DNA of 33,694 nucleotides from a virus. Location of the stretch: IMG/VR virus record IMGVR_UViG_3300027749_000314, positions 1-33,694 of that record. One strand, written 5' to 3'. Below the pieces are notes generated by a model that was not told where the DNA came from, made no database searches, and worked only from the letters and a program-made list of their open reading frames with translations. Position 1 is the first letter of the stretch. Each line of letters opens with the position of its first letter. Both the position numbers and the translations under genes were made by a program. Of this stretch, positions 6,494 to 33,478 are shown one piece after another.

Positions 6494-8473
6494 TTACAAT
6501 ACGCTTCCTTGAATGTCTACGGTTGGGAATTTAACCTCAAAAACACATGGATCCAAAGATGGATAAATGATATTATTTTTTGTAGCACCTGTTATGTCAT
6601 ATTGATACGGAGAGTAGTTTCCATTGACAGATGTAAGATTCATAATTTCTAAACTTGCAACAGATTGCACTCCATCAACTTTTGCAATTTCCAATTGAAG
6701 TTGACTTAAATTTATTGGTTGTGAGAACCCCCATTTATCAATATAAAAAAAGTCTTGAACGGTTTGATTACATTGATCCAACACGTCTTTCTTATTATAA
6801 TTGTTATAAGTTACAATTTTAAATTTGACTCCTATATTGATAATGTATCCGTCAATCAAATTGATACCGTCTGTCAACATTCTATATTTTGAAAGATATT
6901 GTTTGATATTATATGTCAATGCGGCATTTATCGGAGTTAAATTTTTATTTGAATCATATCCAAGAACATATAGATTCACTGAGAATGGATTGCTAATATC
7001 ATAATTTATTTTTCTAAAATAATTTTCAACTGCATTGGTTGTAGCAGTTGCATTATTGTTATAATCAACATATCCACTTACGTCTTTTTTTAATCCAAAG
7101 TTCAAATCTGCATCGGATTTCACAAATGATTTTGCAATGCTTCCGAATTGCGATGGCATTCCGAATGTTCTTACAACATAATCATCTTTGGTTACCGCTC
7201 TGTTTTGAGAAGCAAAAGTTGCTATAGCATTCTGACGAATTTCTTCTACCGTTTCTTGATCTGCTCCTCCAGTTGCAGCAATAAAATTGTTGGCTTTTAA
7301 AGTTTGTTTGATTGTATTAAACAAATTTTGTTGAGATGGATTCAAAGAACTTGCGTCATTCAATAATTGATATGAATTTATTCTTACTATTTCATTTACA
7401 TTACAATTGGATGTTAGTCCACCGCCGACAACATATGTTATTGTTAATGTGGTATTAGACGGAGCCGTACCATATGAATTGGTTTTCAAAAAATTACTAC
7501 TATCAAGAGATAAATCAATGTTTCTGATATTCGCTAATCCAATTCCAACTACACCTGCTGTAGGATATATGATTTGATCACCAACATTGTCGGTGTTTGC
7601 ACCGAATTCCAAATATGTCGTATTACCAGCAGTAATATTTCTTGTAAACTTACGTGATGTCATTAACGACTTCATTATCTTGGGAACTTCAGTTTTATAA
7701 ACATAAAAAGTTCCATCGTTCGTTTCGTTATTGTCTACCTCAGTAAAAATTACTTCTTGTGCCAAATATTCAACTTCATGCCACTTATTATTATTACTAT
7801 CACGAATATCTATTATTTCCAAAACATTGGTTTCGTCAAATTCAATATGAAAAAATGGAGTCGCTGCACCAACCGATACAGTCTTTGTAACCAATTTACC
7901 GGAGAATGCATCTGCGGTTTTTCTGAGAAGGAAAAATTGAGGAACTCCGAGTGCATCTCTTGAATATACCGATACATCTCTAGGAGAAAATGAAGTATCA
8001 ACAGAAAAATCAACGGGTTCAGCAATCAAAAAGTTTTGTCCAGATGTATTCTCCAATTGCATATATTGTTGAATGGATAGACAATATGATTCGTCGGGAA
8101 TATAATTACCATCAACATTCGTCTTTGATGGAACTAATTGAAACAATTCAATATGAGTAGTTGCTGCTTTTGCTGCGTAAGGTTTATATCCCAGATATTT
8201 AGCCAACGTCAAAACATTCTTACGTTCCTCTGCATATGGAAGAAGACTTTCTTTGAATTGATAATCTATATAGTAAGAAAGAACATCACCAACATATGCG
8301 GCCTGTTCAATAAACATTGTGCCAGGTGACGCATCGCTGAAATCTTGATAACTAGTTGGATAATAACTCTTGGCAAAATCAATCAAACCTTGTTTGAATG
8401 AATTAAAATCCCGATTAAGGTACTTAACGTCCTTATTCTGAGGTTGAAATGATTTTTGTATTGTATTTGCCAT
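6494..8473 (-). CDS. 6: Baseplate wedge protein, T4 gp6-like (baseplate J family)
   Basis: The product is 659 residues long. The N-terminus has the typical gp6 signature: VKYLNRDFNSFKQGLIDFAK, DFSDASPGTMFIEQAAYVGD, then VLSYYIDYQFKESLLPYAEE. The C-terminal part (DGINLIDGYIINIGVKFKI ... VQDFFYIDKWGFSQPINLSQLQLEIAKVDGV) fits the J-like/gp6 C-terminal domain. In T4, gp6 dimers form the core of the wedge and the iris that opens during sheath contraction. The gene lies directly downstream of the gp25 homologue with a 3-nt gap, the same neighbourhood as in many T4-like phages. Length is close to T4 gp6. Confidence 0.93.
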   Translation of the reverse strand: MANTIQKSFQPQNKDVKYLNRDFNSFKQGLIDFAKSYYPTSYQDFSDASPGTMFIEQAAYVGDVLSYYIDYQFKESLLPYAEERKNVLTLAKYLGYKPYAAKAATTHIELFQLVPSKTNVDGNYIPDESYCLSIQQYMQLENTSGQNFLIAEPVDFSVDTSFSPRDVSVYSRDALGVPQFFLLRKTADAFSGKLVTKTVSVGAATPFFHIEFDETNVLEIIDIRDSNNNKWHEVEYLAQEVIFTEVDNNETNDGTFYVYKTEVPKIMKSLMTSRKFTRNITAGNTTYLEFGANTDNVGDQIIYPTAGVVGIGLANIRNIDLSLDSSNFLKTNSYGTAPSNTTLTITYVVGGGLTSNCNVNEIVRINSYQLLNDASSLNPSQQNLFNTIKQTLKANNFIAATGGADQETVEEIRQNAIATFASQNRAVTKDDYVVRTFGMPSQFGSIAKSFVKSDADLNFGLKKDVSGYVDYNNNATATTNAVENYFRKINYDISNPFSVNLYVLGYDSNKNLTPINAALTYNIKQYLSKYRMLTDGINLIDGYIINIGVKFKIVTYNNYNKKDVLDQCNQTVQDFFYIDKWGFSQPINLSQLQLEIAKVDGVQSVASLEIMNLTSVNGNYSPYQYDITGATKNNIIYPSLDPCVFEVKFPTVDIQGSVL

Positions 8474-8476
8474 ACT

Positions 8477-8926
8477 TTATATGTTATTCGTTGTAGTAAA
8501 CGAAAAGCTACTTGTTTGGTTATTAAATGTAAATTGTATACTTATTCTAACTATATAATTATTAGCATCCTCTGCTTTTTGTGCAGATGAAATGTCCAAA
8601 AATATATTATTTACAAACACATTTGGAAACCAAGTTTGTATATCTTCCCGAATTACATTTTGAAGAATCGTATCAAATCCATCAATGTTTTGTTCAAACA
8701 AGTAATTATATAGTCTTGTTCCAAATTGGGGATTAAAACGTCTTTCGGATGGTCTCGTTTTGAAAAAATTTAATAAATTTGATCTTATTTGTGTGAGGGA
8801 ATCATATGACTGTGCAAAATATCCATTATTGCCCTTCTGTAAAGGCAGAGTCAATCCAATAGTAGATGGTAGTTTCAAACCAATACTATTTGACAATTTT
8901 GGTAACAGTGTAGGTTTGGAAGCCAT
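8477..8926 (-). CDS. 25: Baseplate wedge protein gp25-like (GPW/gp25 family)
   Basis: The product is 149 residues long. It contains the family pattern: NGYFAQSYDSLTQIRSNLLN followed by FFKTRPSERRFNPQFGTRLY and NYLFEQNIDGFDTILQNVIR. In T4 and other contractile systems gp25 joins the wedge to the first sheath ring and nucleates sheath contraction. The C-terminal strand segment (YIVRISIQFTFNNQ) is typical. The start at 8926 is preceded by AATAATATATATGG with no Shine-Dalgarno sequence. It is adjacent to gp6, which supports the assignment. Confidence 0.92.
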   Translation of the reverse strand: MASKPTLLPKLSNSIGLKLPSTIGLTLPLQKGNNGYFAQSYDSLTQIRSNLLNFFKTRPSERRFNPQFGTRLYNYLFEQNIDGFDTILQNVIREDIQTWFPNVFVNNIFLDISSAQKAEDANNYIVRISIQFTFNNQTSSFSFTTTNNI

Positions 8927-21385: not shown

Positions 21386-21643
21386 TCATATATTAAAATT
21401 ATTCTTAAGAAAATTGTTTAAATCTTTTACCTTACCACTATCCAAGATTAACATATCAGTATATGGATGTCCATTTATTATAATGTGAAATGTCCACCTC
21501 AATCTATCTCGAATAGACATTTTTTTCCCATCAAATCCTCTTTCAAACATACTAATATAAAGGGAATCGTCTTCATCGTCTTTTTCTAACAACAGTGCGT
21601 GAGAATGACAATCACATACAATAAATTTTTTATTCTTCTCCAT
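21386..21643 (-). CDS. Conserved small phage protein, 85 aa
   Basis: It contains KFIVCDCHSHALLLEKDDED, SLYISMFERGFDGKK and SIRDRLRWTFHIIINGHPYT. The CxCHSHAL...ERG....RLRW arrangement is one I recall as recurring in large marine phages with no function assigned. The start overlaps the end of the upstream gene by 14 nt. The CDCHSH cluster could bind a metal, which is conjecture. Confidence 0.65.
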   Translation of the reverse strand: MEKNKKFIVCDCHSHALLLEKDDEDDSLYISMFERGFDGKKMSIRDRLRWTFHIIINGHPYTDMLILDSGKVKDLNNFLKNNFNI

Positions 21644-22073
21644 ATATTTTACATTTATCTTTTTTTGTTGGATGAATTGCTACACTACCATAATAAAATG
21701 ATTGAACTTGATCATACGTTTGATTATAAACTTTAATTCCGCCATGCGGATAGTTTTTACTGCCTAATATGATATACTTTATAAAATATATTTTATAAAA
21801 CGAAGGATACTTGGCAACCATAACTCTACAACCTCGTTCGGTTATTGTAGTGATTCGTTTATCAATTGGAATATTTCTGAAAAATACATGTTCTATATTG
21901 GAACCACTATTAATAATCCGATATTCTTTTTGAAAGAAAGATTCGTCTACATCTTCTTTTTCTTCTAGTTTAGATAATTTTTTCGATTTCTCTTTCAAAG
22001 AAAAGCTCGTTTTTTGTCCGAGCTTTTCTTTGATGATGTCTTTAAACCCATCTTTTGATTTCTTTTTTGACAT
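21630..22073 (-). CDS. Hypothetical protein, 147 aa
   Basis: The first 45 residues are Lys-rich (MSKKKSKDGFKDIIKEKLGQ) and contain, at DNA level, a 14-bp perfect inverted repeat. The rest looks folded (YRIINSGSNIEHVFFRNIPI, RVMVAKYPSFYKIYFIKYII). No family recognised. A TTGACT-16-TATAGG promoter-like site ends only 5 nt upstream of the ATG, which would make a leaderless or near-leaderless transcript. Confidence 0.65.
   Translation of the reverse strand: MSKKKSKDGFKDIIKEKLGQKTSFSLKEKSKKLSKLEEKEDVDESFFQKEYRIINSGSNIEHVFFRNIPIDKRITTITERGCRVMVAKYPSFYKIYFIKYIILGSKNYPHGGIKVYNQTYDQVQSFYYGSVAIHPTKKDKCKIYGEE
21996..22032. repeat. 14-bp perfect inverted repeat inside a CDS
   Basis: Arms CAAAGAAAAGCTCG (21996-22009) and CGAGCTTTTCTTTG (22019-22032) are perfect complements separated by 9 nt. 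The hairpin lies in codons for about residues 14-27 of the 147-aa protein. It could stall ribosomes or act as an early terminator or a protein binding site. Confidence 0.7.
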
Positions 22074-22389: not shown

Positions 22390-22778
22390 TGGTGGACGTA
22401 AAGGGAGTTGAACCCTTGTCTTTAATATAAATCTACAATCGGACTACATGTTTATTCATTTTGAATTTTTAGAAGCATCAAATAAAAAATGACCAAAAAT
22501 TAATGCTCTTAAGATTTAAGATAGTTTAAATTAATCACACAAATCAAATGATCAACCGATCCTGATGGTTTTCATCCAATACAATTATCAGACATCATTG
22601 TATTGAATGTACAGCCTTATTAGGCTGCGATTGCTACCTGCGCATCCCGTGATACGAAGTCATAGCTAATTACATTATCTTCAGTAGTTAATGTTTTGAT
22701 AGATACTTAAAGAGGCCAACTATCATCCTCCACATGCCCAATCGTATCAACATATTAAATCGATACCAGTATACGCCC
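22390..22778 (-). ncRNA. ssrA: tmRNA (one-piece, encoded CCA)
   Basis: The 5' end GGGCGTA pairs with 3' TACGTCC (22393-22400 region) to form the acceptor stem, and the 3' end is A-CCA. The T arm is AAGGG-TTCAACT-CCCTT, and the 5' side carries ACTGGTATCGA, close to the tmRNA D-like consensus ACTGG-TTCGA. The reading frame at 22623-22682 encodes the tag EDNVISYDFVSRDAQVAIAA followed by TAA TAA; the exact resume codon could be one or two codons upstream. Length is 389 nt, usual for tmRNA. With SmpB it rescues stalled ribosomes and tags the peptide for proteolysis. It lies downstream of tRNA-Met and the 39-aa gene, probably co-transcribed from the promoter at 23103-23130. Confidence 0.93.
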
Positions 22779-22800: not shown

Positions 22801-22876
22801 TGGTAGCTATGACAGGAATCAAACCTGTATATTCCATCTTATGAGGATGGCGCATCAATCATTCTGCCACATAGCC
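22801..22876 (-). tRNA. tRNA-Met (CAT) or Ile2
   Basis: Acceptor GGCTATG/CATAGCT, anticodon arm CCATC-CTCATAA-GATGG (anticodon CAT), T arm ACAGG-TTTGATT-CCTGT, discriminator A and encoded CCA. The anticodon stem lacks the three G-C pairs of initiator tRNA. Lysidine-modified Ile2 cannot be excluded. Confidence 0.85.
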
Positions 22877-22962
22877 ATTTATTGAATTTTACACACTTTA
22901 ACTATATGTGCGTCGTACTAATAAATAGTATCTAGATATAGTTTTTCGTGATTAAAGTTGAA

Positions 22963-23082
22963 TTATTTTCTACGTCTTTTTACAGAAGATCCATGTACAT
23001 GAGTAGAAGCGATTCTTACAGTCTTTCCACTCTTAGTTTTACGTGTGTGAGTTTTTCGATAATGAGATGTTCTATTTGCCAT
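22963..23082 (-). CDS. Very basic 39-aa protein
   Basis: The frame encodes MANRTSHYRKTHTRKTKSGK followed by TVRIASTHVHGSSVKRRRK. It is rich in Arg, Lys and His and could bind RNA or DNA, in the style of a small ribosomal protein. It begins about 20 nt downstream of a good promoter (23103-23130) and precedes tRNA-Met and the tmRNA, so an association with translation is conceivable. No homologue is recognised. Confidence 0.65.
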   Translation of the reverse strand: MANRTSHYRKTHTRKTKSGKTVRIASTHVHGSSVKRRRK

Positions 23083-23102
23083 AGGTTTTATTTGATATAC
23101 TT

Positions 23103-23130
23103 AATATACCACCTATATTTTTAAAGTCAA
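23103..23130 (-). promoter_or_regulatory. Sigma70-type promoter with extended -10
   Basis: On the minus strand TTGACT (23125-23130), a 16-nt spacer and TATATT (23103-23108) preceded by TGG. It immediately follows the terminator of the beta-barrel gene and drives the 39-aa gene, tRNA-Met and tmRNA. Confidence 0.75.
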
Positions 23131-23131
23131 C

Positions 23132-23162
23132 AAAAAACCCACCGAATTTTGTTCGGTGGGTT
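23132..23162 (-). terminator. Intrinsic terminator of the beta-barrel gene
   Basis: Minus-strand hairpin AACCCACCGAA ... TTCGGTGGGTT followed by TTTTTT. It lies 18 nt after the stop of the 23180-23926 gene. Confidence 0.9.
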
Positions 23163-23179
23163 AAATAAATCTCAACTTT

Positions 23180-23926
23180 TTAGAATTTCAAGCTCACACC
23201 AGCATAATATTGCACAGTTCCGTTGTAAGAGAATTGTTTGGTAACAACATTGTTATCAACATATTCAACCCCAACAAACGGAGACAACTTGTTGTATACA
23301 GTAACACTAAGCTTGCCACCCCCCTTGAGAGTTTGATATCCTTGGAAATAAGTAGTTTCAACATATGGAGTTACTGATACAGTAGACCATGTGTTCAACT
23401 TGTGTGAAAATTGACGATATGCACCTACTGTCAATCCGCCATTAGACAATTGGGGAACCTTAGTTGTTCCAAAATTAAAATGATCTACATCATAATTATA
23501 ACGAACATATGGAACTGCTATATAAGACAATACTGAAAGTTTGTCAAGAGCAAGTCCAACACCCACAGTATTACGACTTACAGATCCAGCAGAGTAATAA
23601 TCACTCCCCGCATCAACCGTGAATGCGAGTTGTTTAGAAACTTCTATAGTCTTGAAAAGATCGCCTTCAAATGAATTGAATTTGGCACCCGCAGTAAGCG
23701 CAGACAACTTCAAATCAACGTATTTGAACGGAGTAATGAGTTCTACCTGTCCATAGGCAGAAGCCGGACTCAACTTAACACCATACACATCAAATGACGA
23801 CTTGTATCCGCCCTCAACAGAAACACTTGGCTTATCGGTTGGAAATACAGATTCCAATGATGCTGCATTAGCACTTACAAAGACGAATGCCAAAGCGGTT
23901 AATATTTTATTAGTTACTTTATTCAT
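23180..23926 (-). CDS. Outer-membrane beta-barrel protein with signal peptide
   Basis: From the ATG at 23926 the product is 248 residues with a Sec signal peptide (MNKVTNKILTALAFVFVSANA, cleavage after ANA). An upstream in-frame ATG at 23938 would add MYKY; the internal start is preferred because it gives a clean signal peptide and the common ATATATG context. The mature part alternates polar and hydrophobic residues (SVEGGYKSSFDVYGVKLSPA, VELITPFKYVDLKLSALTAG, VQYYAGVSLKF) and ends in Phe, the signature recognised by the BAM machinery. Host outer-membrane insertion is therefore likely. Possible jobs are exclusion of other phages, a porin or a decoy receptor. It has its own promoter region and terminator. 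Confidence 0.85.
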   Translation of the reverse strand: MNKVTNKILTALAFVFVSANAASLESVFPTDKPSVSVEGGYKSSFDVYGVKLSPASAYGQVELITPFKYVDLKLSALTAGAKFNSFEGDLFKTIEVSKQLAFTVDAGSDYYSAGSVSRNTVGVGLALDKLSVLSYIAVPYVRYNYDVDHFNFGTTKVPQLSNGGLTVGAYRQFSHKLNTWSTVSVTPYVETTYFQGYQTLKGGGKLSVTVYNKLSPFVGVEYVDNNVVTKQFSYNGTVQYYAGVSLKF

Positions 23927-23950
23927 ATATTTATACATTTTACTTTTATT

Positions 23951-24018
23951 TTCTACACCATGTAGAATTGTCTTTTATATAATAACCTACCTATGAGAAA
24001 ATCACAAGTTATTATATA
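23951..24018. promoter_or_regulatory. Inverted repeats around the beta-barrel promoter
   Basis: An 11-bp perfect inverted repeat TATATAATAAC (23976-23986) and GTTATTATATA (24008-24018) flanks a minus-strand promoter candidate, TTGTGA-17-TATTAT, whose -10 (23979-23984) is in the left arm. A second hairpin TTCTACA-CCA-TGTAGAA (23951-23967) is in the leader. This is a likely operator or leader regulatory element. Confidence 0.5.
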
Positions 24019-24133
24019 ATTCAATATACATATATTATTAGAAATTATAAAAATGATTTTATTTGTTGGGGAGATTAGAAGAAGAGGTCACAAAAATGTC
24101 ATCATTTCAATTTTATAAAAATACTTATTATAT

Positions 24134-24568
24134 ATGAACAAACACATTATATCAAATTTACCTGAACATGTTGTTGCGAATTTACAAGAAGATATTAAAA
24201 AAGGTAAACCTGCCGTTGCTCGTAGTCCACATTGGGAAACGATTCGTAGACACCACATAAAAAATAACCCAGATTGCGCAGCATGTGGTAATTTAGATAA
24301 TGTTCAAGTTCATCACATTCGTCCATTTCATTTGTTTCCGGAATTAGAATTGGAACCAAGTAATTTTATTACATTGTGTGAAAATGATCCGGATGGCAAA
24401 AATACTGTTATTGAAAATCACCATTTACACTTGGGACACAATGGCAATTTTCATAACAATAATGATAAAGTTTTGAATGATGTAGACGGTTATAGAATAA
24501 ATCAATCCAAATTAGGAAAACTTGAAGGTTATGATATGACAAACCTCAAGAAAATCCTAAATGGTTAA
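24134..24568 (+). CDS. HNH endonuclease
   Basis: The product is 144 residues long. It has a zinc-knuckle pair C48-x2-C51, the H60-H61 of VHHIRPFHLFP, N77 in PSNFITLC and a later HHLHLGHNGNFH segment, fitting the HNH fold. HNH nucleases in phages act as homing endonucleases or in packaging. It is one of only two plus-strand genes here, and its stop overlaps the tyrosinase stop convergently by 3 nt. As a free-standing homing-type enzyme it might have brought in the adjacent cargo, which is inference. No obvious promoter is seen; the start follows ATTATATATG. Confidence 0.88.
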   Translation: MNKHIISNLPEHVVANLQEDIKKGKPAVARSPHWETIRRHHIKNNPDCAACGNLDNVQVHHIRPFHLFPELELEPSNFITLCENDPDGKNTVIENHHLHLGHNGNFHNNNDKVLNDVDGYRINQSKLGKLEGYDMTNLKKILNG

Positions 24569-26097
24569 GTTATTACCGAGAGTTTTAAAGTTTTAATATC
24601 AATTTGTAATGATTTATTTGTAATTAACAATAACTCTATGTCATTGGAATTTCCAATAATAGATGACAATTTATCATTTACTCCTATCGGACTATAAAGC
24701 GGCATTACAAATGAATGTGAAATATTCACATTACGATCTTTGTTTCTGCCATCCATTGTATTGAATCGTCCTATATACTCGTATTGATTTTTCTGCAATT
24801 GAGGATTACTTATATACACCCTTATATTAAATTTATCAGTATATTCAATCGGTCCCGTGACAATTTCTAATACAGTTAATTTTGGATTCAATAATAATAT
24901 CTTTTCCAATTGACTACGATTTAGTTTAATTGTAACTGTCTTATCCAATTTTTTATTAATTGGAATTTCTACACTTGTTACTATACTCGGAGCGGTTTGT
25001 AAAATATAACTCGTTGATCTTCCAACTGGATCGTCACTCGGTCTTTGATATGTTACATTTGTCATCTTGGTAACAATATCTTTAACACTCACTGTAACGG
25101 GACTGCCGTCAATATCTGTATATGTATATTCTTGTTTGCCCCACGGTCCATTTGGATCAGGTTGTCGTTGACGATACAATGACCAAATTCTATCAATATT
25201 TGCGTGATGCATAAAGAAAATGGGATCATTTGCAGCATAACGCAAAGTTCCCATATTTCTATTATTACCATATCGTGTACCTACCCAATCATGGCCGTCA
25301 TTGTGTGGACCCTGTTCCAATAAACCTTGACCAGTTGATTTATCTGTAATTGGTTTGCCACCAAACATTTCAAATGGCGCAGACAACATCGCATTTACAT
25401 AAGGATGACTCATATACCATTTGGTCTCAACAATATGTTGCTTTGAATCTCTACTTTTTTCATTCTTCGGATCCATTTGATATTTTGAAATTGTTGGACC
25501 TCTATTACCATCATACAATGCTAAATTATCAAATCCAAGATTGTCTGCATTCACCATATCTTCTTGCGTCAAATCATATCCAAACAACGGACTTGATAAT
25601 TTTTTTGCAATACGGTCTTTGGTATTTGGTATTTCTTGATGATTGCTCCAATCCCAATATGGATACGCAATCGGTTCGCCGGTATAACCAAATTGAGTTT
25701 TTAAAATATTGTCAAGAATTCGTTCAAGAAAATAAATATAACCACGATGCCAAGGAAGAAAATGCCAACTCCAATGAACTTGACTCATTGTAATACCAGC
25801 ATCAGTACAATGATATGCGTGTAATTTAGCATAACTTTCCCATTGCAATGTACTATTTAATGCGATCTTTCCACGCATATATCCAACCGCACGACATAAA
25901 TTTTTCAATTCGTCATCAGTTAAATCATAAAAACTTTTACGAATTCTCCGAGGTTCATTGGTCGGATCAAATCGTTTGATTGACTTGATTCCACAATTTG
26001 CATCTTCTTTGGGAGACGACGCATTGACATTAAGACCTATTGTACTTGCTACAATACTAGTGGATAGAAAATTTCTTCGGGATATACTCATAAACAT
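24565..26097 (-). CDS. Tat-type tyrosinase / polyphenol oxidase
   Basis: The product is 510 residues long. The N-terminus carries a twin-arginine signal (SRRNFLSTSIVASTIGLN). The CuA ligands are H93, H108 and H117 (QVHWSWHFLPWHR), with C97 placed for the Cys-His thioether bond of plant-type catechol oxidases. The CuB ligands are H265 and H269 (GPHNDGHDW) and H298 (NDPIFFMHHANIDRIW). C-terminal parts (QEYTYTDIDGSPVTVSVKDI; DKFNIRVYISN) resemble the DWL and KFDV domains of plant-type polyphenol oxidase. Such enzymes use O2 to hydroxylate phenols or oxidise catechols to quinones, leading to melanin-like polymers. The gene has its own promoter at 26133-26160. A complete, apparently functional enzyme of this type in a phage is unusual. 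The start could also be M3. Confidence 0.93.
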   Translation of the reverse strand: MFMSISRRNFLSTSIVASTIGLNVNASSPKEDANCGIKSIKRFDPTNEPRRIRKSFYDLTDDELKNLCRAVGYMRGKIALNSTLQWESYAKLHAYHCTDAGITMSQVHWSWHFLPWHRGYIYFLERILDNILKTQFGYTGEPIAYPYWDWSNHQEIPNTKDRIAKKLSSPLFGYDLTQEDMVNADNLGFDNLALYDGNRGPTISKYQMDPKNEKSRDSKQHIVETKWYMSHPYVNAMLSAPFEMFGGKPITDKSTGQGLLEQGPHNDGHDWVGTRYGNNRNMGTLRYAANDPIFFMHHANIDRIWSLYRQRQPDPNGPWGKQEYTYTDIDGSPVTVSVKDIVTKMTNVTYQRPSDDPVGRSTSYILQTAPSIVTSVEIPINKKLDKTVTIKLNRSQLEKILLLNPKLTVLEIVTGPIEYTDKFNIRVYISNPQLQKNQYEYIGRFNTMDGRNKDRNVNISHSFVMPLYSPIGVNDKLSSIIGNSNDIELLLITNKSLQIDIKTLKLSVIT

Positions 26098-26132
26098 TTT
26101 CTTATAAGTATCAGAAAAAAGTTTTTAGTATA

Positions 26133-26160
26133 ATTTTAAATTGATAGTTAACGATGTCAA
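26133..26160 (-). promoter_or_regulatory. Promoter of the tyrosinase gene
   Basis: On the minus strand TTGACA (26155-26160, full consensus), a 16-nt spacer and TAAAAT (26133-26138). The start of transcription would be about 30 nt upstream of the tyrosinase start. Confidence 0.7.
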
Positions 26161-26189
26161 TGATCCATCGTTCTAATTTTATACTAACG

Positions 26190-26245
26190 GACTATAGTCA
26201 ACGACCCCTAGGCTAAAGCCGAAGGGGTTTCCTTCCTCCCCCAAA
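26190..26245. repeat. Hairpin resembling an IS200/IS605 end, with GACTATAGTC palindrome
   Basis: A 10-bp palindrome GACTATAGTC (26190-26199) is followed by a hairpin with outer stem ACCCCT/AGGGGT (26204-26228) and inner stem GGC-TAAA-GCC, then TTCCTTCCTCCCCC. The GGCTAAAGCC core after CAACG is reminiscent of right ends of IS200/IS605 elements. No transposase or TnpB is nearby, so it could be a remnant or an unrelated hairpin such as a weak terminator. Confidence 0.35.
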
Positions 26246-26330
26246 AGATGAAAATTCTAAGGATTTCACGGCGGGCTAATTAGACCCAATGACAATATTT
26301 TAATTTTATCTTCCGTTCCACATTTTAAAC

Positions 26331-26375
26331 TCCTTAACCAAAGGGAATCGAACCCCAGAGATGTGTCTATCTAAG
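26331..26375 (-). pseudogene. tRNA 3'-half remnant
   Basis: On the minus strand a T-arm-like segment TGGGG-TTCGATT-CCCTT is preceded by an imperfect stem-loop AGAT-AGACAC-ATCT, but no D arm, acceptor stem or CCA can be found. It looks like a decayed tRNA in the gap between the tyrosinase promoter and the next gene. Confidence 0.35.
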
Positions 26376-26390
26376 AATTAAAATCAATTA

Positions 26391-27002
26391 TTAAAATTCA
26401 AACTTAATTTGAGTTACGGCTACATCCGCATGTGACCAAGGATTGCTTTTGGAATCTTCCTTGTAATAATAAGTGCTTCCTTTAATTTTTGGAGTGATTT
26501 GCCAATCAACGCCAGCATAAATTCTGTTTTTTACAAAACCCATAGAATGAATTGTATCATAAAACGATTCGTCGGCAATAAATGGATTGATTTTGAATCG
26601 TGTCCACTTCCAAGGAGTATTATATTTTGGAAACACGTTCAATTGATATGTTGAAGCAGTCGGACTGGTGTTAAGACCAATTTCAATTCGGGTTCTCAAA
26701 TTAATTTTTCCCCAATTGGTGCTCTCTGGATATTTTAGATTGAAACCTTCAATGAACATGTTTTGATCATTGAATCCTTTACCCTTGTTTTGTAAAATAA
26801 AACGATAATCAGTAAACACATCAACATTTTGATTCAAAAGATATTTGTATTGTATATCAGTGTGTTCATAAAAAAGAGGGGTTGCTTGATTTTTAGCACG
26901 AAATTCCTCTTCAAGAGTAAATACAGATTTATCTCTCCAAGAATCTGCGTTAATCATTGAGGTTGCACATAGTAGTGACAATAACACGTTTAGTTTTTTC
27001 AT
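26391..27002 (-). CDS. Second outer-membrane beta-barrel (DUF2490-like)
   Basis: The product is 203 residues long with a signal peptide (MKKLNVLLSLLCATSMINA, cleavage near NA/DS). The mature sequence shows amphipathic strands (FYEHTDIQYKYLLNQNVDVF, GKINLRTRIEIGLN, WTRFKINPFIADESFYDTIH, GVDWQITPKIKGSTYYYKED) and ends in IKFEF with a terminal Phe. The WTRFKINPFIADESFYD segment resembles the DUF2490 family of small barrels. It lies downstream of the Cys-Thr-Arg tRNA cluster and probably shares the promoter at 27310-27337. Together with the other barrel it brackets the tyrosinase. Confidence 0.8.
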   Translation of the reverse strand: MKKLNVLLSLLCATSMINADSWRDKSVFTLEEEFRAKNQATPLFYEHTDIQYKYLLNQNVDVFTDYRFILQNKGKGFNDQNMFIEGFNLKYPESTNWGKINLRTRIEIGLNTSPTASTYQLNVFPKYNTPWKWTRFKINPFIADESFYDTIHSMGFVKNRIYAGVDWQITPKIKGSTYYYKEDSKSNPWSHADVAVTQIKFEF

Positions 27003-27034
27003 TTTTTATACTTGTATCATTACTGATACAAAAA

Positions 27035-27122
27035 TGGAGTACTGTGTAGGAATCGAACCTACGGCGTGGTTTCCCACTTCGGTTTTGCAGACCGCCGCCT
27101 TACCACTCGGCGTCAACAGCAC
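27035..27122 (-). tRNA. tRNA-Cys (GCA) with long variable arm
   Basis: Acceptor GTGCTGT/ACAGTAC, discriminator T (a Cys identity element) and CCA. Anticodon loop CTGCAAA gives GCA. T arm GTAGG-TTCGATT-CCTAC. Between the anticodon and T stems is about 16 nt with a hairpin GTGG-GAAA-CCAC, a class II-like variable arm that normal tRNA-Cys lacks. Confidence 0.85.
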
Positions 27123-27132
27123 ATATTAAAAT

Positions 27133-27207
27133 TGGAGCCTCATGACAGACTTACACTGTCCTCTTCACATTACGAATCTGACACATCGTTATCTATGTTT
27201 ATGAGGC
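27133..27207 (-). tRNA. tRNA-Thr (CGT), somewhat degenerate
   Basis: Acceptor GCCTCAT/ATGAGGC, discriminator T and CCA; T arm GACAG-TGTAAGT-CTGTC; D-stem ACAT/ATGT. Loop TTCGTAA gives CGT. The anticodon stem has one G-G mismatch and the D loop lacks the usual GG, so the isotype call is tentative. Confidence 0.65.
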
Positions 27208-27213
27208 AAAATT

Positions 27214-27289
27214 TGGTGGGCATACTTGGACTTGAACCAAGATTTCCAGTTTCGAAGACTGGCACTCTATCCAATTGAGTTACACGCCC
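27214..27289 (-). tRNA. tRNA-Arg (TCG)
   Basis: Acceptor GGGCGTG/TATGCCC, D arm ACTC-AATTGGATA-GAGT, anticodon arm CCAGT-CTTCGAA-ACTGG (TCG), T arm CTTGG-TTCAAGT-CCAAG, discriminator A, CCA. Confidence 0.93.
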
Positions 27290-27309
27290 GTTGTTAACTA
27301 ACTTTATAT

Positions 27310-27337
27310 ATCCTATCACACTTTCTTGAATCGTCAA
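27310..27337 (-). promoter_or_regulatory. Promoter of the Arg-Thr-Cys tRNA unit
   Basis: On the minus strand TTGACG (27332-27337), a 16-nt spacer ending in TGA, and TAGGAT (27310-27315). It begins about 20 nt upstream of tRNA-Arg and may also serve the second beta-barrel gene. Confidence 0.75.
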
Positions 27338-27343
27338 CAAAAA

Positions 27344-27814
27344 TTATTTCAGTGGAATATATAGATCGCCAGTTAAACCTTTTTCACTTAAATAACTGGC
27401 ATCACTAATTGCAAGAGGACTTTTGATGTATCCATATCGCTTGCTCAATATTTTACGCAATTCTGTACCAGCTAGTTGTATCAAATCTAATTGAACTTGT
27501 CCTTTACTGGTGTTAATTTTACCGGCAAGTCCAGTGGGCAACACGTTTTCATACTGTTTATACAGTCTAATTATATCATCGTAATGTGACAATTCCAAAC
27601 CCGGCTCTTTTAATTTAGTAGTTATTATTTGTTTACCAAAATGTTTAGCAATTTCTATATTAGATGTATGATTTGCTCCCAATGTAGCCACTAACTTGTC
27701 ACCTGGCTTGATGCTATTGATACCTAATCCCACATTACCATATGCGGGATCAACACCTCTGTATACAGTCAACCCAGGTTGTACTTCGTTCAACAAATCT
27801 TTTAATAATATCAT
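27344..27814 (-). CDS. Putative ADP-ribosyltransferase-like protein with capsid-targeting N-terminus
   Basis: From the ATG at 27814 the product is 156 residues starting MILLKDLLNEVQPG. An upstream ATG at 27841 would overlap the previous gene and break the shared N-terminal pattern, so the internal start is chosen. LTVYRG holds a candidate catalytic Arg; NHTSNIEIAKHFG resembles the STS-x-A-x-F strand of R-S-E type ADP-ribosyltransferases. The C-terminal Glu motif is not clear (YLSEKG is one candidate). T4 Alt is a packaged, injected ADP-ribosyltransferase, which would fit the LLNE leader. Family assignment is moderate at best; it may be an unrelated small domain. Same operon as the DUF5872-like gene. 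Confidence 0.5.
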   Translation of the reverse strand: MILLKDLLNEVQPGLTVYRGVDPAYGNVGLGINSIKPGDKLVATLGANHTSNIEIAKHFGKQIITTKLKEPGLELSHYDDIIRLYKQYENVLPTGLAGKINTSKGQVQLDLIQLAGTELRKILSKRYGYIKSPLAISDASYLSEKGLTGDLYIPLK

Positions 27815-27831
27815 ATATGCAGTATTATTAA

Positions 27832-28278
27832 TTATTCCCAATTACGACAACTCCAAAATCTTGCTTTTGTTTTTGGTCCTGGATTGGTATCACAATGATG
27901 TCTTGCTCTAAAACTTTTACGTCTCGCCGGATTACTCTTCTTGATCCTCATGTTGGGATCACCAAAATTTACCTTCTTGATATTACCAGTAGCAGGATTT
28001 TTTACATAAACTTTAAACTTTTTTACGTCTCCTCGCATCGGTTTGTTCAATGGAACTGTTCTACCATGATATTCGGATTCATCCAAGGTGTCACTTTGTT
28101 CTTTGACATAATTTAGAAGTTCTATCATGTCAGTCTTAGACTCAAGAGTAATTTCTTCTTGTTCTTTCATGACACAATTTGGCACCATTCTTTGGCCTTT
28201 TTTCTTCATACCAACTTGTTTGTAACTGTCCCAACACGCCTCTTCAATCTCATTTAGAAGTTCTTTTAATTTAATCAT
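27832..28278 (-). CDS. Capsid-targeting leader, CWxxYKQVGMK motif and ARRKSFRARH domain
   Basis: From the ATG at 28278 (after TTTATAAATATG) the product is 148 residues. A longer frame adds 18 residues that lack the pattern of its paralogue, so the internal start is used. It has MIKLKELLNEIEEACWDSYK then QVGMKKKGQRMVPNCV, shared with the 31872-32756 gene. The C-terminus (VYVKNPATGNIKKVNFGDPN ... NPARRKSFRARHHCDTN ... ARFWSCRNWE) matches a domain I recall from large phages and giant viruses (DUF5872-like). The LLNE end is like a T4 gp21 cleavage site, so it may be a packaged internal protein. Confidence 0.7.
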   Translation of the reverse strand: MIKLKELLNEIEEACWDSYKQVGMKKKGQRMVPNCVMKEQEEITLESKTDMIELLNYVKEQSDTLDESEYHGRTVPLNKPMRGDVKKFKVYVKNPATGNIKKVNFGDPNMRIKKSNPARRKSFRARHHCDTNPGPKTKARFWSCRNWE

Positions 28279-28281
28279 ATT
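28230..28281 (-). repeat. 52-bp exact direct repeat, copy 1
   Basis: The bases at 28230-28281 are identical to 32708-32759. They cover the start codon and the first 16 codons (MIKLKELLNEIEEACW) of two different genes. Identity then drops, so this is a movable 5' coding module or gene-conversion tract. Confidence 0.9.
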
Positions 28282-28398
28282 TATAAATATAGAACCAAAG
28301 TACAATCTTACAAGAAATCGGTAGGTCTTCAAGATGACTATAACTTATAGTCAATCATATGTAAATATTCTCCGAAGATTTTGACAAAAACTATTATT

Positions 28399-28707
28399 TT
28401 AGTTACTTACAATCGGAACACTTGAATAAATATTTCTTTCTGTTTGTGCGCGTATCATTTCAAAATATTTAACCATATGCTGAATCATATCATTAGCCAT
28501 AGGCTCTACCCAATCAATCGGTTTATAGTCAGTTGCACTTACTCCTGCATGTATTGGTTTAATATTACCAGATTCAAATTGTTTTTGTAAAAACACAATC
28601 AATTCTTGTTTTAGTTTTTCTTTTTGTTGTATAACAAAAATTTCATTCAATTGATTTGATATCGCCAAGTTACGATGTTTAATAAAAGTTTCTTCAAAAA
28701 GATTCAT
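28399..28707 (-). CDS. Hypothetical protein, 102 aa
   Basis: It starts MNLFEETFIKHRNLAISNQL with NEIF. The sequence is helical and ends NDMIQHMVKYFEMIRAQTER. LNE-I at residues 20-23 is a weaker version of the LLNE site seen in neighbours. It is preceded by a promoter at 28761-28788. No family recognised. Confidence 0.65.
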   Translation of the reverse strand: MNLFEETFIKHRNLAISNQLNEIFVIQQKEKLKQELIVFLQKQFESGNIKPIHAGVSATDYKPIDWVEPMANDMIQHMVKYFEMIRAQTERNIYSSVPIVSN

Positions 28708-28760
28708 ATGTTATAAATAGATATATTATAGGAAAAGTATATATTTATTTGGTGCTGGTT

Positions 28761-28788
28761 TATCTAGCAATTCGTTCTCCTTAGTCAA
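28761..28788 (-). promoter_or_regulatory. Promoter candidate for the 102-aa gene
   Basis: On the minus strand TTGACT (28783-28788), a 16-nt spacer ending in TGC and TAGATA (28761-28766). It lies about 50 nt upstream of the start codon. The -10 is the weakest part. Confidence 0.5.
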
Positions 28789-28840
28789 GGACTTACACAC
28801 TCTTACACATAGAATGTCGTTTTAAAAATGTGAAATTACT

Positions 28841-29257
28841 TCACAGATTATCTGGTTCATCGTAATCATTATCGCGTTGATCACGCTTATCGTCGGCGTA
28901 CCGTTCTGCCTCATAATCATCTGCATCCGACATCGCATCCGAAATCGCATCCGAAATCTCTTTCTCTAGTTGTTTCAATTCAGAATCGGACACGTCAATT
29001 TCTTTACCGGTAGAATCTTTTACGCTTTCAATATCAATCGTTGCTTCTTCATCTGGCTCCAATTGAAGACCCGTTCCACGTTCTCGTGCACCACGGGATG
29101 CTGGAGATGCCGTGTATGTTACAGTAAGATCAACATCCGACTCAGCACCAGTTTTAGGATTGGTGAGTGTCATTCTTGTCTTAAGAACGCTTTCATTCAG
29201 ATTTTTTCTGAGTTTAAACATGTTGTCGCCGATATTTTCAAAAAGTTTTTTTTTCAT
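28841..29257 (-). CDS. Acidic conserved phage protein, 138 aa
   Basis: It contains MFKLRKNLNESVLKTRMTL (an LNE site) and NPKTGAESDVDLTVTY, ERGTGLQLEPDEEATIDIES. The C-terminus is extremely acidic (SDAISDAMSDADDYEAERYA). I recall similar sequences as conserved, uncharacterised proteins of marine T4-like phages. The first 11 residues may be dispensable because an ATG lies at M12 (29224). It is divergently placed from the plus-strand gene at 29351. Confidence 0.65.
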   Translation of the reverse strand: MKKKLFENIGDNMFKLRKNLNESVLKTRMTLTNPKTGAESDVDLTVTYTASPASRGARERGTGLQLEPDEEATIDIESVKDSTGKEIDVSDSELKQLEKEISDAISDAMSDADDYEAERYADDKRDQRDNDYDEPDNL

Positions 29258-29350
29258 AATGTGATAATCCGTTACAAATAAATATCAATCATAATTATAT
29301 TATAACATAAAATTGTTATATTTTATTAATACAATTTTATATTTATAATC

Positions 29351-29761
29351 ATGACCATAAGAAATTTATACGAAGCATACGCACGCAAACAAAAACAACC
29401 AATCAACGAAGCAGATTTTCAAAAATTCCAAAGAAAAATTGGATCTGCACTCAACAAAGTGGGAAAGGGAATCGGTTCATCTGATATTTCAAAGTTTGGA
29501 CAAAAAATGTCAATGAATCAACTACAATATAATGTGGGTGCCAAATTAGATAAAAAATTTAATACTCAAGGATATCAACAACGAAAATCCGTTGTGGGAA
29601 AATATTCTAATTCAAAACGAGTTGTTGATAATTTGAAAAAGTTAATAAAAATTTGGAATGCTACGATGGATAAAAAATACAACGTCGTCAACCCAATGGA
29701 CATAGATAATTTTAACAAAGATTTAGAAAAGTTGATAGAAAAATATATCACCAAGTTATAA
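29351..29761 (+). CDS. Basic hypothetical protein with T4 capsid-targeting-like N-terminus
   Basis: The product is 136 residues starting MTIRNLYEAYARKQKQPINE then ADFQKF. Two candidate LxE/IxE sites (LYE, INE) in the first 20 residues resemble those of T4 internal proteins. The rest is Lys/Asn-rich and helical (RVVDNLKKLIKIWNATM). A basic DNA-associated internal head protein is a reasonable guess. It is on the plus strand, opposite to most genes here. Confidence 0.6.
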   Translation: MTIRNLYEAYARKQKQPINEADFQKFQRKIGSALNKVGKGIGSSDISKFGQKMSMNQLQYNVGAKLDKKFNTQGYQQRKSVVGKYSNSKRVVDNLKKLIKIWNATMDKKYNVVNPMDIDNFNKDLEKLIEKYITKL

Positions 29762-29806
29762 TTGTGTCAGTGACTTACGGTGTGTCCGTATGTCAACACG
29801 AAAATT

Positions 29807-29885
29807 TGGTGGATCAGATGGGAGTCGAACCCACATTTATCCAATTATGCACCTATCGCTTAGAAGGCGTGGCCAATACTGATCC
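29807..29885 (-). tRNA. Non-canonical tRNA; anticodon uncertain (TCT Arg possible)
   Basis: Acceptor GGATCAG/CTGATCC, discriminator A, CCA and T arm GTGGG-TTCGACT-CCCAT are clear. A loop CTTCTAA flanked by a 3-bp CGC/GCG stem would give TCT. The D-loop-like motif AATTGGATA falls between this loop and the T arm, not before it, so the central part does not fold as a normal cloverleaf. Confidence 0.6.
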
Positions 29886-29895
29886 GTGTTAAAAT

Positions 29896-29969
29896 TGGTT
29901 GTCTCTGACGGTAACGCTCCGTCGTCACACAATTATCAGTTGTGGGCTTTACTCTTAAGCTAAGAGACA
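29896..29969 (-). tRNA. tRNA-Ile (GAT)
   Basis: Acceptor TGTCTCT/AGAGACA, D arm GCTT-AAGAGTA-AAGC, anticodon arm CACAA-CTGATAA-TTGTG (GAT), T stem GACGG/CCGTC with loop AGCGTTA, discriminator A, CCA. D loop and T loop are weakly canonical. Confidence 0.8.
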
Positions 29970-29976
29970 ATTGAAA

Positions 29977-30055
29977 TGGCGAGGGTAGCCGGATTTGAAC
30001 CGAGCAAGTCTGCACAGTGACAGTGTGCGATGTTAACCAGTTACACCATACCCCC
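29977..30055 (-). tRNA. tRNA-Asp (GTC)
   Basis: Acceptor GGGGGTA/TACCCTC, D arm GTGT-AACTGGTTA-ACAT, anticodon arm GCACA-CTGTCAC-TGTGC (GTC), T loop TTCAAAT, discriminator G as expected for Asp, CCA. Confidence 0.88.
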
Positions 30056-30096
30056 ATAAATTGGATTTTTGAAAGGATTTCACGATAAAATGTGTT

Positions 30097-30171
30097 CTAC
30101 ATTCGTTAAGGAGTCGCACCTTAAATCTCCCGCTTTCAACGGCGGGCGTTCTTCTCTTAAACTACATTCGT
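30097..30171 (-). pseudogene. tRNA-like element with identical, non-pairing ends
   Basis: A D arm (GTTT/GAAC), anticodon-like stem CCCGC/GCGGG with an 8-nt loop CGTTGAAA and a T arm TAAGG-TGCGACT-CCTTA are present. The two acceptor positions carry the same sequence ACGAATG, which cannot pair, and no CCA follows. A 10-bp direct repeat (30097-30106 and 30162-30171) brackets it. It is probably not a functional tRNA. Confidence 0.5.
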
Positions 30172-30246
30172 ATCTATCTTCAAGGAAAAAGTATCAGAAG
30201 CGATCCAATACAAACCTTCTTGACTAGCTTTGTCAAATAACTAAAT

Positions 30247-30324
30247 TGGTGGATGTGGTGGGATTTGAACCCACAACCTTTCGGGTAAGAACCGAATACT
30301 CTAATCCAGTTGAGTTACACATCC
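30247..30324 (-). tRNA. tRNA-Lys (CTT)
   Basis: Acceptor GGATGTG/CACATCC, D arm ACTC-AACTGGATTA-GAGT, anticodon arm TTCGG-TTCTTAC-CCGAA (CTT), T arm GTGGG-TTCAAAT-CCCAC, discriminator A, CCA. Confidence 0.92.
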
Positions 30325-30359
30325 ATTAAAAATTGTATCTACTGTTGTCAACGAACTAT

Positions 30360-30400
30360 AAACATCTTACCACACATTCGTCATACGTCAACAACTTTTT
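30360..30400 (-). repeat. 41-bp exact direct repeat with promoter, copy 1
   Basis: Identical to 31353-31393. It encodes KVVDV-stop of the glycosyltransferase-like gene and contains TTGACG-16-TAAGAT. Confidence 0.9.
30364..30391 (-). promoter_or_regulatory. Promoter of tRNA cluster 2
   Basis: On the minus strand TTGACG (30386-30391), a 16-nt spacer ending in TGG and TAAGAT (30364-30369). It overlaps the stop codon of the upstream gene and faces tRNA-Lys, Asp and Ile. Confidence 0.75.
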
Positions 30401-31283
30401 CTAACTTCTTCAAAATTTCTTCACATCTGTTTTTATAAGAATTATATTTTATAGCAATTTGCTGCGATTTAATCGCCAGGTTTTGTGCCTCGTCAAAATG
30501 ATGTATGTAATAGTCAATAGCATCTAACCAATTTTTATCATCTACATAAGGAACGACATCGTCAAAAATATTTTTAACATAAACATGATCACATATCTGA
30601 AAATTTCCGCTGGTAGCTATATCAAATACTCTACCATTTAATTCAATCCTAGAATAACAATCATCATCAGTTTCAATCTTTTGATTTTTATAATGAAAAT
30701 TTAAATTAACCTTCGTAGAATTATATACAACATTCAAATCTTTATATCGCACATTAGGAAAATTATCAAATCCACCATATATACCTCTATAATTTTTATT
30801 CATCACACTATACAAGTATCCGTCTTTATCACGATTTCCATGCGCAAACGTTCCAAAAAAACTAACATCATATATTTTCTCACAATCTAATTTGTAAAAT
30901 AAATTAGGATATGAACCCAACGATATACAATGTAACTTTATACCAATTGTATCCATTAATTTAGACAAATATGTATTTTGTACACATAAATTAAACCACA
31001 AATCAACATATTGTTTTAGTTTAACATAATAAGAATTAAATTCCCAACATAATATGCAAATTTTACTCTCGGGAAATTTTTTCTTATATAAAATTATATC
31101 ACTGATTCTATCCTCAGAACATCCATGTACTATCATCACATCACAAAATCCATCTATGTCACATATTCTTCGGTCATAACAAGATATTTTAGTAACACTA
31201 TGATTCAATTCACCAAATCCATATAACCATCCATTGCCAGTAGGAACAATATGTGCAAACTCTTCATAAACAATTATTTTCAT
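30381..31283 (-). CDS. Glycosyltransferase-like protein (CgeB/GT1 type)
   Basis: The product is 300 residues long. NGWLYGFGELN near the N-terminus, YDVSFFGTFAHGNRD in the middle and SRIELNGRVFDIATSGNFQI followed by CDHVYV match the C-terminal Rossmann domain pattern of CgeB-like (glyco_trans_1_2) enzymes, where NxRxFDxxasGgf is conserved. An E after VPYVDD-K is seen further on. Likely it transfers a sugar, perhaps to DNA, a virion protein or host glycan; the acceptor is unknown. Its last residues KVVDV lie in the 41-bp repeat, and its promoter is the other repeat copy. Confidence 0.75.
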   Translation of the reverse strand: MKIIVYEEFAHIVPTGNGWLYGFGELNHSVTKISCYDRRICDIDGFCDVMIVHGCSEDRISDIILYKKKFPESKICILCWEFNSYYVKLKQYVDLWFNLCVQNTYLSKLMDTIGIKLHCISLGSYPNLFYKLDCEKIYDVSFFGTFAHGNRDKDGYLYSVMNKNYRGIYGGFDNFPNVRYKDLNVVYNSTKVNLNFHYKNQKIETDDDCYSRIELNGRVFDIATSGNFQICDHVYVKNIFDDVVPYVDDKNWLDAIDYYIHHFDEAQNLAIKSQQIAIKYNSYKNRCEEILKKLEKVVDV

Positions 31284-31352
31284 AACATTTATAAATATAA
31301 AACTTTGAGGATTTCACGGAGATAATTACTTCCAAACGACATTATTTTTAAG

Positions 31353-31393
31353 AAACATCTTACCACACATTCGTCATACGTCAACAACTTTTT
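31353..31393 (-). repeat. 41-bp exact direct repeat with promoter, copy 2
   Basis: Identical to 30360-30400. It encodes KVVDV-stop of the 133-aa gene and carries the same promoter. Confidence 0.9.
31357..31384 (-). promoter_or_regulatory. Promoter of the glycosyltransferase-like gene
   Basis: On the minus strand TTGACG (31379-31384), a 16-nt spacer ending in TGG and TAAGAT (31357-31362), about 70 nt upstream of the ATG at 31283. Confidence 0.7.
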
Positions 31394-31775
31394 TCAAAAC
31401 CGCTTCCATCACTTTTCTGCTTCTTTTTGATGGTGACGGATACATGAAAGATCGTGTTTTGCCTGCAACATACGGCGGTGTTTTACCAACACTCGTATAC
31501 TGCGATGCTGTTATGTCAATGATCACGCCGCCTTGACTTTGCAACCACCAATGACTCACGTTGTTTTCATCTTTTGCTTGAAATGGCTTGAACGTATCGG
31601 TCAATGAAAATTTATTCATCAAACAATACAACGCCTCGGTAGCAACATAACAATGTCCATACATAGGATTATTTGCATTTGTTTGCCGATACTCGGGTTT
31701 CAACAATTTTGGATGCAAACAATTTGTTATTGCAGCAATAAGTTTTGGTACCGTTGGAACTGTATTTTTCATCAT
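31374..31775 (-). CDS. Putative Cys/His/Asp hydrolase-like protein, 133 aa
   Basis: It contains GHCYVATEALYCLMNKFSLT, then SHWWLQSQGGVIIDITASQY and YPSPSKRSRKVMEAVL. A Cys at the start of a helix, a later His and an Asp in a strand recall papain/transglutaminase-type catalytic triads (C...H...D), and I recall phage proteins with the GHCYVASEA...HW...DLTA pattern. The activity is untested. Its C-terminal KVVDV is encoded by the 41-bp repeat. Confidence 0.6.
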   Translation of the reverse strand: MMKNTVPTVPKLIAAITNCLHPKLLKPEYRQTNANNPMYGHCYVATEALYCLMNKFSLTDTFKPFQAKDENNVSHWWLQSQGGVIIDITASQYTSVGKTPPYVAGKTRSFMYPSPSKRSRKVMEAVLKKVVDV

Positions 31776-31871
31776 ATGTTTCTAAATCATTCACCGCTCC
31801 GTGACACCACGATTCTATAGATATACTCCGATTCATCCATGTTAAACTTGGGCGATTACTACTAAAATTGT

Positions 31872-32756: not shown

Positions 32757-32759
32757 ATT
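32708..32759 (-). repeat. 52-bp exact direct repeat, copy 2
   Basis: Identical to 28230-28281; encodes the first 16 residues of the ParB/GNAT fusion. Confidence 0.9.
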
Positions 32760-32808
32760 CTATATATATTATGATGATTCATAATCCCGTCACAATGTTA
32801 AGATAAAA

Positions 32809-32883
32809 TGGTGGCTCAGGTCAGACTTGAACTGACAACACGAAGTTCTTCAGACTTCTGCTCTACATTGGAGCTACTGAGCC
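32809..32883 (-). tRNA. tRNA-Phe (GAA)
   Basis: Acceptor GGCTCAG/CTGAGCC, D arm GCTC-CAATGTA-GAGC, anticodon arm GAAGT-CTGAAGA-ACTTC (GAA), T arm GTCAG-TTCAAGT-CTGAC, discriminator A, CCA. Confidence 0.92.
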
Positions 32884-32894
32884 ATTAAAGTAAT

Positions 32895-32972
32895 TGACAG
32901 ATTAAAGGATTTGAACCTTTTCGGAACAGCATCACTGCGCCTTTACCACGCCATGTACACTAGCACCTGTCA
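32895..32972 (-). tRNA. tRNA-like element, 8-bp acceptor, no CCA
   Basis: Ends TGACAGGT and ATCTGTCA form 8 pairs, and the T arm AAAGG-TTCAAAT-CCTTT is good. The D and anticodon arms cannot be assigned; only CAG-TGATG-CTG is seen. No CCA is encoded. It may be a decayed or unusual tRNA. Confidence 0.5.
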
Positions 32973-32976
32973 AAAG

Positions 32977-33084
32977 TGATCTGTGTGGTTGGATTTGCAC
33001 CAACGGCCCTAAGCTCCATCTGCCCTTTTGCGGTGTCTTTTACCATCATAGCAGTGCTTTGATCTACTACTGAACTACACACAG
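32977..33084 (-). tRNA. 108-nt tRNA-like element with expanded centre
   Basis: Acceptor CTGTGTG/CACACAG, D-arm-like GTTC-AGTAGTA-GATC and T arm GTTGG-TGCAAAT-CCAAC are recognisable. About 55 nt between D and T arms is far more than normal and holds a hairpin GGT-AAAAGAC-ACC. The 3' end is A-TCA, not CCA. An insertion or intron-like segment is possible; the anticodon is not assignable. Confidence 0.5.
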
Positions 33085-33091
33085 ATTAAAT

Positions 33092-33176: not shown

Positions 33177-33185
33177 ATTAAAATT

Positions 33186-33240: not shown

Positions 33241-33257
33241 CGTTATTACACGAAATT

Positions 33258-33344: not shown

Positions 33345-33352
33345 ATTAAAAA

Positions 33353-33443: not shown

Positions 33444-33478
33444 ATTAAACTATTTATCTCATTTATATTAGTGGAAAT

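Follow-up and report, generated by a model that had tools for sequence, protein, structure and literature searches.

The 33,694-nt viral stretch analyzed here (hereafter the window) is one of at least 20 phage contigs that encode a tyrosinase, the kind of copper enzyme that browns cut fruit. The gene family is intact and selectively maintained in these phages, carries a complete catalytic signature, and represents a genuine and apparently undescribed family of phage tyrosinases. Tyrosinases hold a di-copper site with which they catalyze the oxygen-dependent o-hydroxylation and oxidation of phenols, and type-3 copper oxidases of this kind have been described in bacteria, fungi, plants, and animals. 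Judging from the sequence, we consider it probable (roughly 0.8) that the phage gene product is a Tat-exported and probably latent type-3 copper phenol or catechol oxidase that would act in the periplasm or after lysis.

The tyrosinase gene of the window is free of internal stops, its boundaries are exact (Table 1), and its initial annotation as a complete tyrosinase held: a Pfam profile search matched residues 85–310 of the protein to PF00264 (Tyrosinase; E = 4.5e-35, 122 bits against a cut-off of 22.6), relatives scoring 120–125 bits against the same profile, while PHROG returned no match to the window protein. Residue 3 of the window protein aligns with the Met of its relatives, so that translation may in fact begin at the second ATG.

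Table 1 Features of the window (PPO, polyphenol oxidase; vsTyr, Verrucomicrobium spinosum tyrosinase; A4, family alignment).
Feature	Position	Strand	Remarks
Baseplate wedge genes, gp6-like (6494-8473) and gp25-like (8477-8926)	6494..8926	-	Phage hallmark genes
PhoH-like phage gene	19710..20471	-	Anchors phage context
tmRNA	22390..22778	-	Rfam RF00023, 109.9 bits
Exported beta-barrel-like protein (TorF/Gcw_chp-related)	23180..23938	-	Companion conserved in 7 sampled phage groups
HNH endonuclease gene	24134..24568	+	Convergent with tyrosinase gene, 4-nt overlap
Tyrosinase/polyphenol-oxidase-like type-3 copper protein	24565..26097	-	510 aa; 508 aa from second ATG (26091)
C-terminal domain, predicted beta-rich jelly-roll, like the inhibitory domain of latent PPOs	24568..25062	-	Fold comparison
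CuB motif E261, H265-N266, H269-D270, L285, H297-H298	25192..25317	-	Invariant in A4; read against vsTyr and plant PPO
CuA motif H93-x3-C97-x10-H108-x8-H117	25747..25821	-	Invariant in A4
Twin-arginine (Tat) signal region MFMSISRRNFLSTSIVASTIGLNVNA	26020..26097	-	xRRx[FL][LIFV] motif
Promoter-like TTGACA-16-TAAAAT, 11/12 consensus	26160-26133	-	At chance level in AT-rich region
Exported DUF2490 protein (PF10677)	26391..27002	-	Upstream of tyrosinase gene

The six copper-ligand histidines (H93, H108, H117, H265, H269, and H298) and a thioether-type Cys four residues after HisA1 (Cys97), all described as intact in the first-pass annotation, are indeed invariant across the family alignment A4 (14 full-length rows, one of them a Verrucomicrobia protein). 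The same is true for E261 and for N266 at HisB1+1, and the 'seventh' His, H297, which adjoins H298, is likewise invariant in A4. HMMER aligned the segments VH...WHR (with H108 and H117) and HHxNxDR to copper-binding motifs of solved hemocyanins. L285 occupies what we take to be the gatekeeper position, i.e., 13 residues before HisB3 as in the spacing of plant catechol oxidase. By its spacing, E261 corresponds to the waterkeeper of vsTyr, Glu254, which is located four residues before HisB1 (PMC10526336), and N266, by the same comparison, to the first activity controller position. A waterkeeper Glu combined with Asn at HisB1+1 has been associated with monophenolase activity, even if activity controllers alone do not settle the activity (PMC5562730), and Asp at HisB2+1 conferred tyramine (monophenol) activity on a plant PPO (PMC11608171). 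The HisB2+1 residue of the window protein is Asp (D270), and the E261/N266/D270 set suggests monophenolase competence. Assignment to the class of type-3 copper phenol oxidases is a strong prediction.

At its N terminus, the window protein carries the motif SRRNFL with a hydrophobic stretch after the RR, and the xRRx[FL][LIFV] pattern recurred in 15/15 family members read, in agreement with the twin-arginine signal noted initially. By this motif the protein would be a Tat substrate, with export itself predicted from the RR pair. The consensus promoter proposed upstream of the gene fared less well: the site exists, but 23 such sites were observed in the region as compared to 22.0 ± 5.5 in shuffled sequences, and because the count equals that of the shuffles, the site is not evidence for a promoter.

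An intact C-terminal part had also been claimed. This stood for a complete domain of ~165 aa with a predicted jelly-roll fold, but not for the families PPO1_DWL and PPO1_KFDV, for which neither the whole protein (to E = 10) nor its C-terminal part alone (to E = 1) gave a Pfam match. A search of PDB sequences with a C-terminal profile returned chance-level matches only, and hhalign aligned the domain weakly to bacterial C-terminal domains (E = 0.0058, probability 6%); mean column identity in the family is 68% in the catalytic core versus 41% in the C-terminal part. AlphaFold2 models based on 11 full-length and 16 core sequences were poor (pLDDT 44.9 and 41.4), put the copper-site helices in place at this low confidence (pLDDT 45 and 41), and were better in residues 370–510 (blocks of 48–88). 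When the low-confidence whole-chain model was searched with Foldseek, a latent aurone synthase came out on top (E = 4e-12), the leading matches comprising latent aurone synthases, tomato PPO, and Ralstonia tyrosinase. As whole-chain matches rest on low-confidence models, the fold evidence used here is that from the C-terminal part, along with the ranking of PPOs. Foldseek matched the isolated C-terminal domain of apple PPO (6elt; E = 3.4e-5), and VIA-align superimposed the phage domain on the apple domain 6elv with Z = 8.5 and an rmsd of 3.8 over 122 residues, a score that unrelated jelly-rolls tie. Because other jelly-rolls score equally, the assignment is one of fold, not of common descent. 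In fold and gene layout, the predicted architecture is thus that of a latent PPO, although the C-terminal domain has no Pfam match.

Beyond the window, relatives 46–72% identical to its protein, most of them full length, are encoded on 19 further IMG/VR contigs, extending the gene to other phage genomes. They were retrieved in four pattern scans of 2.9 million viral contigs, each with its own query, the matches of which converged (saturating). The 20 contigs include near-copies, leaving ~14 distinct sequences, and two of them measure 297 kb and 109 kb. No match to the window tyrosinase was found among 50,697 isolate-phage records, and probing the same records with a bacterial tyrosinase likewise gave none. 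The sensitivity of this search was adequate, since a plasmid search of the same kind caught Streptomyces and Rhizobium enzymes at ~25% identity. Nor did the literature yield a paper on a phage tyrosinase, those joining tyrosinase and virus terms being irrelevant, which agrees with the initial view that such an enzyme had gone undescribed.

The GC content of the tyrosinase gene tracks that of its own genome, from 33% to 57% across phages, and pairwise dN/dS values range from 0.08 to 0.21 (NG86), being rough for distant pairs, where dS is near saturation. Maximum-likelihood analysis placed the phage proteins together with one Verrucomicrobia MAG protein in a single group (100/99), parted by a long branch from other cellular tyrosinases, whose identity to the window protein over long alignments is 20–30%. 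With outgroup branches this long, the Verrucomicrobia protein may sit inside or outside the phage group. This protein (L015; ~50% identity) has the RR motif and the same signature, and its contig, VHCG01000074, looks bacterial (GC 63%; no phage gene recognized). It was the only close cellular relative found; the 84,980 genomes were scanned with two exact peptide patterns, by which more distant cellular relatives may be missed. Verrucomicrobia as a general source was rejected, as just 1/289 Verrucomicrobiota genomes had a close relative and an order-level sample added one weak match. A supposed cellular copy in Fonsibacter (L016/L041; JALRAW010000008.1, bases 7127-7955) was discarded as a chimera: at the end of this contig, an argC-like Fonsibacter chromosomal region is joined to a phage tyrosinase-gene fragment, the neighbors of which are identical in places to phage G001.

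The phage had been called T4-like, which applies in the wide sense: the baseplate genes of the window and the gp23 of its relatives point to the T4 superfamily, but gp23, as well as terminase, is absent from the 33.7-kb window itself. On both the 109-kb and the 297-kb relative, T4-type gp23 and terminase share the contig with the tyrosinase. The gp6-like protein of the window is closest to those of Microcystis phage Mel-JY01, LR756508 (a 484-kb uncultured phage), and Flavobacterium phages immuto (38–41%), as is the gp23 of the 297-kb contig (55–59%); that of the 109-kb contig is of the Pelagibacter HTVC008M/Synechococcus myovirus type (60–62%). The order PhoH, tmRNA, exported barrel, opposite-strand intervening ORF, and tyrosinase is common to the window, L002, and L010, another gene occupying the place of the HNH endonuclease in the latter two. 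Genes that adjoin the tyrosinase or lie in its vicinity in relatives specify an endonuclease, ribonucleotide reductase, a RuvC-like resolvase, and a tail-fiber attachment/RNA ligase protein. No caddie gene was recognized beside the tyrosinase.

Several further features of these genomes were recorded in passing. The window and G001, G003–G007, and G009 have a one-piece tmRNA with unusually long tags (20–27 aa, e.g., AEDNVISYNFTSRDAVALAA and AKRNLAKTSFLSVSRKSEVAVA); the tag of the window, whose tmRNA copy was missed by ARAGORN, appears to begin with Thr, not Ala. Reading the host from these tags was given up, long phage tags such as AEDNVISYNFTSRDAVALAA being unlike the Verrucomicrobiota ANEEFALAA type. 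ARAGORN detected at least ten tRNA genes and Rfam twelve, scattered singly or in small groups over the cargo region of the window (22801-33554), with no single cluster. Eleven proteins of differing length share a MIKLK[DE][LI]LxE-like start, 0 being expected in shuffles; they occur in the window (27832-28332, 31872-32756 (-), and 27344-27841 (-)) and also in L004, L008, L009, and L063, and a 135-nt direct repeat underlies two of them. The start looks like the T4-type capsid-targeting signal on internal head proteins. Finally, the window ORF 21630-22073 (-) gave a weak protein-glutamine glutaminase match (E = 4.6e-4; 19.5 bits against a cut-off of 250).

Two readings would deny that these are phage-encoded oxidases. 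The first-pass annotation had itself raised the possibility of host DNA, i.e., of a bacterial tyrosinase gene misjoined to a phage contig. Mis-joining does happen, as in the truly chimeric Fonsibacter contig with its fragment of the phage gene, and bacterial-looking VHCG01000074 has a 50%-identical gene. Yet 20 contigs carry the tyrosinase, some with synteny around the gene in common, and phage hallmark genes reside on the same contigs; moreover, gene composition matches each phage genome, and close cellular relatives are nearly absent, leaving no obvious donor. Because phage genes surround the tyrosinase in independent assemblies, a chimera is very unlikely, and we give it almost no weight. 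The protein might instead be a hemocyanin-like oxygen binder, an otherwise non-catalytic type-3 copper protein, or a copper/oxygen scavenger, and molluscan hemocyanins do top the whole-chain PDB scores. These scores, however, add up several repeated domains: among the alignments shown, single domains of plant PPOs reach ~110 bits, whereas no hemocyanin stretch exceeds 36. The invariant waterkeeper Glu and the Asn at HisB1+1 likewise speak against such a role, to which we assign a small probability.

The phenol oxidase that we favor would be synthesized in the cytoplasm and then, going by its RR motif, pass through the Tat pore of the host, a Tat system and a periplasm being assumed for the latter. 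Two coppers would be loaded on the six histidines, and the position of Cys97 suggests that a plant-type thioether with His108 may form. C-terminal domains of this enzyme family block the active site until they are cleaved. The C-terminal jelly-roll would cover the site of the phage enzyme, which would probably be latent until cleavage and might be activated in the periplasm or on lysis. Once active, it is predicted to hydroxylate and/or oxidize mono- and diphenols to o-quinones, either in the periplasm or in the lysate. If true, extracytoplasmic copper chemistry would be within the reach of large phages (up to 297 kb) during infection, and the family offers a compact, testable set of enzymes from a distinct tyrosinase clade, the closest cellular source of which is nearly absent from the searched genomes.

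As to purpose, our own ranking places an action on environmental phenolics on behalf of the host, by conversion or detoxification, about level with quinone cross-linking of the envelope, and both ahead of oxygen or copper handling; roles in melanin formation, deterrence of grazers, or damage to competing phages are speculation. Each of the two leading proposals concerns the purpose of the favored enzyme and does not posit a different one. That the gene is an ordinary auxiliary metabolic gene, by which dissolved algal or humic phenolics are converted or detoxified and the infected host is kept productive, is possible if somewhat doubtful. Phenolic acids and catechols are tyrosinase substrates (PMC9454253), and the adjoining porin-like barrel could admit small aromatics; on the other hand, tyrosinase yields toxic quinones instead of ring-cleavage products, and no other aromatic-degradation gene was recognized in the window. 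With still more reserve, we entertain that the enzyme acts on the envelope, periplasmic quinones cross-linking proteins or amine-bearing polymers such that superinfection is blocked or lysis altered, with the barrels as part of the same cargo. The Tat motif fits this proposal, as does the exported TorF-like barrel, which is present in seven sampled phage groups and is separated from the tyrosinase by 0.6–5.1 kb in six of them and by 27 kb in the remaining one; the window copy ends in a C-terminal Phe and is distantly TorF/Gcw_chp-like. So does the exported DUF2490 protein adjoining the tyrosinase, the gene for which is present in the window only and absent from all related contigs compared. 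Against it, the barrel was not found in G010, G011, G012, G013, L060, and L062, most of which are fragments, and PADLOC gave no match, by which a defense-system reading was dropped. Isolate phages contained no match to the barrel protein. Its proximity to the tyrosinase suggests envelope cargo, the alternative being shared synteny of related phages. The most elaborate version of the proposal appears unlikely to us: a dedicated phage clade of Tat-exported enzymes, present in at least two T4-superfamily lineages with different hosts, that quinone-modify the envelope of the infected cell for superinfection exclusion or lysate hardening, with the close cellular copy being phage-derived.

Compared with known enzymes, the predicted phage oxidase shares its di-copper motifs with Streptomyces MelC2 (NF047834; E = 7.7e-15) but falls outside that family, scoring 54.8 bits against the NCBIfam equivalog cut-off of 450. 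The Ralstonia (7xio) and Hahella (8b74) tyrosinases also have a C-terminal domain but are cellular bacterial genes; residues 48–510 of the low-confidence model matched the fold of 7xio with Z = 8.7, an rmsd of 5.5 over 289 residues, and 18% identity. L015 differs from the phage proteins in its high-GC bacterial contig and an extra C-terminal extension. The latent plant PPOs, namely Coreopsis aurone synthase (4z11/4z14), the walnut enzyme JrTYR (5ce9), and apple MdPPO1 (6els/6elt/6elv), belong to the same core fold family and, at ~25% identity, resemble the phage enzyme in the waterkeeper Glu and the C-terminal jelly-roll domain. Their Cys also lies four residues after HisA1, with a Cys-to-HisA2 loop longer than that of the phage enzyme. 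In contrast, the plant enzymes have Phe in place of Leu at the gatekeeper position, chloroplast instead of Tat targeting, and PPO1_DWL/KFDV domains that are unmatched in the phage protein. The tyrosinase of V. spinosum (8bbq) is a weaker sequence match (E = 3.6e-16) than the plant PPOs and differs in forming its thioether from a Cys-x-His motif, as opposed to a Cys at HisA1+4, and in having Asn, not Asp, at HisB2+1. Still, it resembles the phage enzyme in its Tat signal and C-terminal extension and, within the core, in the gatekeeper Leu, the Glu waterkeeper at HisB1-4, and the Asn at HisB1+1 (PMC10526336).
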